Source: Cetobacterium sp. NK01 (GTDB lineage: Bacteria; Fusobacteriota; Fusobacteriia; Fusobacteriales; Fusobacteriaceae). Taken from it: DNA of 64,000 nucleotides. The DNA is taken from assembly GCF_024506395.1 (NCBI RefSeq), contig NZ_JANIBO010000001.1, positions 124,001 to 188,000 on the forward strand, read 5' to 3'. Shown here piece after piece: positions 34,492 to 35,230 of the stretch. A model generated the notes under the pieces. The model worked only from the letters and a program-made list of their open reading frames with translations, was not told where the DNA came from and searched no databases. The stretch's first letter is position 1. The number at the start of each line of letters is the position of its first letter. The position numbers were made by a program, and so were the translations under genes.

Positions 34492-34520
34492 TTGACATTT
34501 TTATTCATTTATAGTACCAT
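34492..34520 (+). promoter_or_regulatory. Orphan promoter for candidate small RNA
   Basis: Consensus TTGACA (34492-34497), a 17-bp spacer and TACCAT (34515-34520). No start codon with a ribosome site follows for 200 bp; instead three hairpins and a terminator follow. Confidence 0.55.
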
Positions 34521-34526
34521 AATATT

Positions 34527-34648
34527 GAGACCGAATTTGATTGAATAGATCTATATACCCCCCAAAAATCTATTTTAATCTTTTTTATTTTTAACACTCC
34601 CCCGTGTTAATAAAAAACTCCTTTTCCCCAAAAGGAGTTTTTTTTATT
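34527..34648 (+). ncRNA. Candidate small RNA with three C-loop hairpins
   Basis: The 321-bp gap 34407-34727 holds no gene but shows a promoter followed by three hairpins. H1 has arms 34539-34550 and 34568-34580 (12 bp, one bulge) and a 17-nt loop containing CCCCCC. H2 has arms TTAACAC/GTGTTAA (34591-34610) and a TCCCCC loop. H3 has arms AAAACTCCTTTT/AAAAGGAGTTTT (34614-34641), a CCCC loop and eight T, a strong terminator. Exposed C-runs could pair with AGGAGG ribosome sites, as in RsaE/LhrC-type regulators. A leader of the 34728 gene with an attenuator is the alternative. Confidence 0.55.
34614..34648 (+). terminator. Terminator ending the candidate small RNA
   Basis: A 12-bp stem AAAACTCCTTTT / AAAAGGAGTTTT with a CCCC loop and a run of eight T. 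An A-run on the left side would also allow termination in the other direction. Confidence 0.85.
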
Positions 34649-34727: not shown

Positions 34728-35096
34728 ATGAAAAAATTACTTTTAAGCTTAACGGTTTTATTATCAGTTACAGCACTTGCTAATTCTAAAGAGGATATGA
34801 TTGAAATGGGGCTAATGAATAAATATCCTGCTTTAACAGATGGAAAAACAACTATAAATGTTCATGAATATGATGTTGATTTAGATCATCATAAAATTGA
34901 GTTAAAAATTGAATTAAAAGGTGATGCTTCAAAAACTGAATATGATAAATTAGATAAAGCTAAATTAGAAGAATTAGCTTCTGAAATGGCAAAATATACA
35001 CAAACTGAATCTGGAAAAAATCTACCAGTTTCTCTTGAAATAGAAGTAGATAGAGATATGCTTCCAGATGAAATTCTTTATAAGAATACTTTCTAA
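34728..35096 (+). CDS. Small exported protein of unknown function
   Basis: 122 residues. The signal peptide MKKLLLSLTVLLSVTALA should be cleaved before NSKED. The mature part (about 104 residues) is acidic/basic mixed, contains VHEYDVDLDHHKIELKIELKG, and has no known motif. It is likely periplasmic. ATTAGGAGG precedes the start. It lies 80 bp downstream of the candidate small RNA and ends at a terminator whose loop also carries CCC. Confidence 0.75.
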   Translation: MKKLLLSLTVLLSVTALANSKEDMIEMGLMNKYPALTDGKTTINVHEYDVDLDHHKIELKIELKGDASKTEYDKLDKAKLEELASEMAKYTQTESGKNLPVSLEIEVDRDMLPDEILYKNTF

Positions 35097-35101
35097 AAAC
35101 T

Positions 35102-35148
35102 AAAAAGGCAACTTCCAATGTCCCATCATTGAAGTTGCCTTTTTTTTA
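35102..35148 (+). terminator. Terminator of the 34728 gene
   Basis: A long stem AAAAAGGCAACTTC / GAAGTTGCCTTTTT is extended by AATG/CATT across a bulged C, with a TCCCAT loop and a run of T. Confidence 0.9.
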
Positions 35149-35154
35149 AAATCT

Positions 35155-35168
35155 AATACCCCCGTATT
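35155..35168. repeat. Short hairpin AATAC-CCCC-GTATT
   Basis: A 5-bp stem with a CCCC loop, immediately after the terminator of the 34728 gene. It resembles the C-loop hairpins at 34591 and 34614. It is small and may be chance. Confidence 0.3.
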
Positions 35169-35230
35169 TATATATATAATATCACATTTTTCAACTAATT
35201 TCAAGTTTTTTGTTCATTTTTTGTAAGTTT

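Follow-up and report, generated by a model that had tools for sequence, protein, structure and literature searches.

What does the short interval without an open reading frame (ORF) at 34492–34648 encode in the 64,000-nucleotide (nt) stretch of Cetobacterium sp. NK01 DNA analysed here (the window), and what would its product act on? A preliminary description had proposed a small RNA with three C-rich loops that represses translation. To our knowledge, little is known about regulation by small RNAs in Fusobacteriota. Judged from sequence comparisons, this RNA, here called the C-loop RNA, represents a real, unannotated family of RNA genes absent from Rfam, which is of a known functional kind and has an unusual distribution of copies. 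We consider it likely that it is a trans-acting RNA of about 119 nt, the C-loops of which would serve as redundant, Hfq-independent anti-Shine-Dalgarno seeds of an LhrC-like repressor. The copy in the window has the following parts.

34492..34520, plus strand: promoter TTGACA-17 nt-TACCAT, recognised from the sequence, with hexamers and spacing kept at the aligned copies
34527..34646, plus strand: C-loop small RNA gene, type A copy, about 119 nt, recognised from its anatomy and homology searches
34539..34580, plus strand: hairpin 1 (GATTGAATAGAT / ATCTATTTTAATC) with loop ...UAUACCCCCCAAAA, from folding and covariation
34589..34610, plus strand: hairpin 2, TTTTAACACTCCCCCGTGTT, with loop UCCCCC, the same letters in all copies but the truncated one of genome G005
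34612..34646, plus strand: intrinsic terminator with CCCC loop (C-loop 3), the C-run of which is lost in the outgroup copies L012 and L014-L018

The promoter, the lack of an ORF, the three C-loop hairpins and the terminator were all found where the preliminary description had placed them. No ORF of at least 60 amino acids (aa) overlaps the gene, and a small-protein gene was ruled out for lack of an ORF. The promoter hexamers match the consensus at 10 of 12 positions; a single match of such quality is at chance level (6 found, 6.1 expected), but the aligned copies keep this promoter. The 5' end (34527) was placed from the spacing to the -10 hexamer and the start of homology at GAGACC. The fold of the window copy has an energy of -25.8 kcal/mol compared to a mean of -10.9 for dinucleotide shuffles (z -5.64, 0 of 200 as good). 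The stem of hairpin 1 is weak and rich in A/U and closes a large loop, and the terminator consists of a 14-pair stem followed by T-rich DNA (1 found, 0.2 expected). The three C-runs, CCCCCC at 34558, CCCCC at 34599 (in the loop UCCCCC) and CCCC at 34626, each have a computed unpaired probability of 1.0. That C-runs are rare in this DNA was also borne out: runs of at least five C occur just 10 times on the plus strand of the 64 kilobases (kb), two of them in the C-loop RNA, while a third is the complement of a G-rich RNA nearby, described below as the G-loop RNA. Neither an Rfam scan of the window nor a permissive one of the locus gave a family at gathering score for the C-loop RNA; the permissive matches resemble chance matches to terminators, and a known Rfam family was thus rejected.

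The preliminary description had missed that the C-loop RNA occurs in several copies, that plasmids carry it and that a complementary G-rich RNA lies nearby. The NK01 genome (G000) has five copies, two chromosomal and three on other contigs. All five were strong matches in a DNA search of 100 genomes, which gave 1-5 in nearly all congeners, and genome G009 likewise holds five; several copies per genome are typical of LhrC. A covariance model of the RNA (R1) was searched in 98 Fusobacteriota genomes with a cut-off of E <= 0.1 and matched in 20 of them, including a weak match in G079 (E 0.03). Significant matches were obtained in 11 of the 12 Cetobacterium genomes, in both genomes of g10, the genus to which Cetobacterium sp. 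2A belongs, and in three genomes each of g13 and g11; in the remaining Fusobacteriaceae genera nothing was significant. The 38 aligned copies come from four Fusobacteriaceae genera only, and an exact-pattern scan over 84,980 species found the RNA in Fusobacteriaceae records only. None of the phages and viral contigs searched contained it, and a phage origin was rejected. Among plasmid records, six from Cetobacterium, with sizes of 128 to 705 kb, hold the C-loop RNA with no annotated feature beneath the match, and in named C. somerae strains the copies lie on a 665-705-kb plasmid and on smaller plasmids.

The Cetobacterium copies fall into three locus types. Type A, to which the window copy belongs, adjoins a 122-aa gene in seven genomes. 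Type B is flanked by an 80-aa gene and lrgB/lysS; as this synteny extends to g10, it is probably the ancestral locus. Type C is found on the second replicon and on plasmids, with changing neighbours. Each type has its own promoter sequence, all TTGACA-like with 17-nt spacers, and homology within the family begins at GAGACC/GAAACC, which is the expected +1. As promoters, neighbours and orientations differ among the copies, the RNA would act in trans. Repeats of the form AGAACA...TGTTCT...GTGTTCT surround the type B promoter (L031, L008-L010) and are perhaps an operator; a GAAC also lies upstream of the -35 hexamer of the G-loop RNA promoter.

In type B the column identity is 0.95-1.00 over the RNA, compared to 0.39-0.54 upstream of the promoter and about 0.57 past the terminator. 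In hairpin 1, 98.3% of the alignment cells are paired and three pairs have changed on both sides (GC-to-AU and AU-to-UG exchanges), and the observed pairing or covariation score was reached by 0 of 500 shuffles. Hairpin 2 never varies among the intact copies and therefore gives no covariation evidence. In the exceptional copy of G005 (L013, G005:C4:92727-92817) an unrelated terminator replaces hairpin 2 and one C-loop is left. The preliminary description would have been contradicted by stems kept while the C-runs were lost, and for loops 1 and 2 the opposite was observed: all intact copies retain 5-6 C there, and hairpin 1 changes with compensation. The expectation held for the third loop within Cetobacterium (L010 has CCC only) and in L011, and failed in the outgroup copies L012 and L014-L018, where the C-run is absent or shifted into the stem. 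Nearly all Cetobacterium copies have three runs of C4-C7, mostly unpaired, whereas the outgroups expose only two.

In the proposed mechanism, the redundant seeds would be the loops UAUACCCCCC and CUCCCCCG, joined in Cetobacterium by that of the terminator. They would pair with mRNAs holding GGGGG in the ribosome-binding site and block translation initiation without Hfq, as Listeria LhrC does. With copies under different promoters, a single regulon could receive input from different signals or from each replicon. Hfq had no match in the NK01 genome in a search that was positive for controls including E. coli and B. subtilis, while the KH domain of KhpA/KhpB gave two matches above cut-off. GGGGG occurs 2-10 nt before ATG at 196 sites in the NK01 genome compared to 106 for the reversed pattern. 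Candidates with such start sites, named by sequence resemblance, include mlaA and eutH as well as genes for an aldehyde dehydrogenase, a metQ-like lipoprotein and a rex-like repressor. The best conserved candidate target is mlaA, with GGGGGT(A/G)TT before the start in 10 of the 10 Cetobacterium genomes where the gene was found. Operon-wide targeting of oppBCD was rejected, as oppC of the NK01 genome has an ordinary AGGAGG site. Two minus-strand ORFs in the window (60292 and 63365) are candidate targets because AGGGGG precedes their start.

About 450 bases from the window copy, in the opposite orientation, lies the G-loop RNA.

35176..35204, minus strand: promoter TTGAAA-17-TATTAT of the G-loop RNA, promoter-like in all 10 genomes, including G005
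35102..35169, minus strand: G-loop small RNA, AAAUACGGGGGUAUUAGAUUUU plus terminator, about 70 nt, a candidate partner or sponge
35107..35139, minus strand: terminator of the G-loop RNA, stem GGCAACTTC/GAAGTTGCC, recognised from the sequence

The G-loop RNA is kept in ten Cetobacterium genomes, with its first 22 nt near-invariant and columns 2-22 invariant. The 122-aa gene of the plus strand probably uses the same terminator. It is probably an independent transcription unit, since the upstream gene differs in G005 and three of the ten genomes lack a type A copy. With loop 1 of type C it can form 15 contiguous base pairs (bp; p about 0.0003 against flank shuffles), and with loop 2 it can form 10 (p about 0.07). 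Four diverged paralogues with promoter and terminator were found (L254, L255, L256 and L258, containing GGGGATATTAAATTTT or GGGGATTATTAAATTTT), and one paralogue is located on plasmid NZ_CP092521. The G-loop RNA stands alone by its sequence and its G-rich region is complementary to the C-rich seeds, and it is possible that it is a RosA-like sponge of the C-loop RNA; more tentatively than the rest of the mechanism, it would pair with the C-loops and titrate them as RosA does for RoxS. We regard as doubtful a cross-replicon circuit in which C-loop RNAs of the plasmids and second replicon act on host mRNAs and are restrained by the chromosomal G-loop RNA through its 15-nt match to the plasmid type. 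Candidates for further G-loop RNAs were also discarded. Weak matches outside Cetobacterium (R2) were terminator-like and hence not accepted as homologues, and pattern matches in G001, G003:C27, G040, G042 and G054 were without promoter-terminator anatomy and apparently due to chance. Covariation of the plasmid-type G-loop RNAs with the plasmid-type C-loops was not supported (p 0.35-0.93).

Several observations weigh against a C-loop repressor with a G-loop sponge. The assignment of targets is weak because a G-rich Shine-Dalgarno sequence is complementary to any C-run. In the NK01 genome the end of the upstream ORF overlaps with the G-run preceding mlaA, which may have been conserved there for its Gly-Gly codons. 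Past the G-run, the G-loop RNA matches types A and B only marginally (p 0.07-0.10), the plasmid-type G-loop RNAs showed no excess complementarity, and no G-loop RNA was found outside Cetobacterium, though the C-loop RNA occurs there. Both the transcription and the targets of the C-loop RNA are predictions from sequence.

Other explanations of the C-loop RNA were considered. The 122-aa gene, encoding a secreted protein, starts at 34728 in the same orientation, about 80 nt past the RNA, an arrangement kept in seven genomes, so that the RNA might be its cis-acting leader or attenuator. We rejected this reading, which is very improbable, because the paralogues adjoin unrelated genes (lrgB, an 83-aa ORF, plasmid genes), which they face or leave, often on the opposite strand; in G002 the 122-aa gene is present but a type A copy is lacking, and the terminator forms a complete hairpin for which no competing antiterminator was seen. 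It is unlikely, though less so, that the RNA is a decoy whose hairpins mainly bind a protein of the KH type (KhpA/KhpB) or some other C-binder. Hairpin 2 is invariant including its stem, beyond what structure alone requires, and KhpA/KhpB homologues are present while Hfq was not found. However, base pairing directly explains the complementarity of the loops both to Shine-Dalgarno G-runs and to a conserved G-loop RNA, and protein binding would leave room for pairing.

The mutual complementarity of up to 15 bp could also be read in the other direction, the C-loop RNA itself being the sponge that titrates a G-rich regulatory RNA such as that at 35102-35169 (minus strand), and C-loop copies do outnumber G-loop copies per genome. 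We find this quite improbable, as the C-loop RNA also occurs in genera that yielded no G-loop RNA. A trans-acting C-rich seed directed at ribosome-binding sites, as originally suggested, is the best-supported reading, and the repression it would exert is predicted.

Among known small RNAs, LhrC of Listeria is encoded in five copies with three redundant CU-rich motifs, for which pairing to the Shine-Dalgarno region has been shown (PMC4132741). The C-loop RNA resembles LhrC1-5 of L. monocytogenes in having about five copies per genome and three C-rich motifs in loops or single strands, including the terminator loop, and would similarly pair with G-rich Shine-Dalgarno regions. It differs in that its copies are spread over chromosome and plasmids and its motif is C4-7 instead of CUCCC, and control by LisRK is not expected. 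Homology with LhrC was not found, as judged by Rfam scans at gathering score, without a check that Rfam includes an LhrC model and without an alignment to LhrC itself. FoxI and FoxJ of Fusobacterium nucleatum, from the same phylum, have a C-stretch seed and envelope-protein targets and are sigma-E dependent (PMC11005410). The seed is comparable, as is the candidate envelope target mlaA. In the comparison with FoxI that the preliminary description called for, the C-loop RNA does not resemble FoxI, its promoters being by their sequence (TTGACA-17-TATACT/TACTAT) of sigma-70 type. Unlike FoxI/FoxJ, the C-loop RNA is multicopy. Among the Fusobacteriaceae genomes searched, its covariance model gave significant matches in four genera only. 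A C-rich seed against the Shine-Dalgarno sequence is shared with RsaE/RoxS and other low-GC C-rich small RNAs, yet the C-loop locus matched no Rfam family at gathering score. For the G-loop RNA the nearest functional precedent is RosA, a sponge of RoxS/FsrA in Bacillus subtilis (PMC8216469). Like RosA and RsaI of Staphylococcus aureus, it is stand-alone, G-rich and complementary to C-rich RNA regions; unlike them, it is about 70 nt long with one G-run and no known homology, and its pairing is predicted.

With many copies and three C-rich motifs, the family is LhrC-like in its design and belongs to a distant phylum; it has spread onto plasmids, and a conserved complementary RNA apparently accompanies it. 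It has no annotation in the plasmid records searched, and the NK01 genome gave no Hfq match. The strong conservation and the cultured hosts, such as the fish-gut bacterium C. somerae, make the family directly testable. Elsewhere in the window, the sole Rfam match was a purine riboswitch (RF00167, 58041-58138, 60.7 bits).
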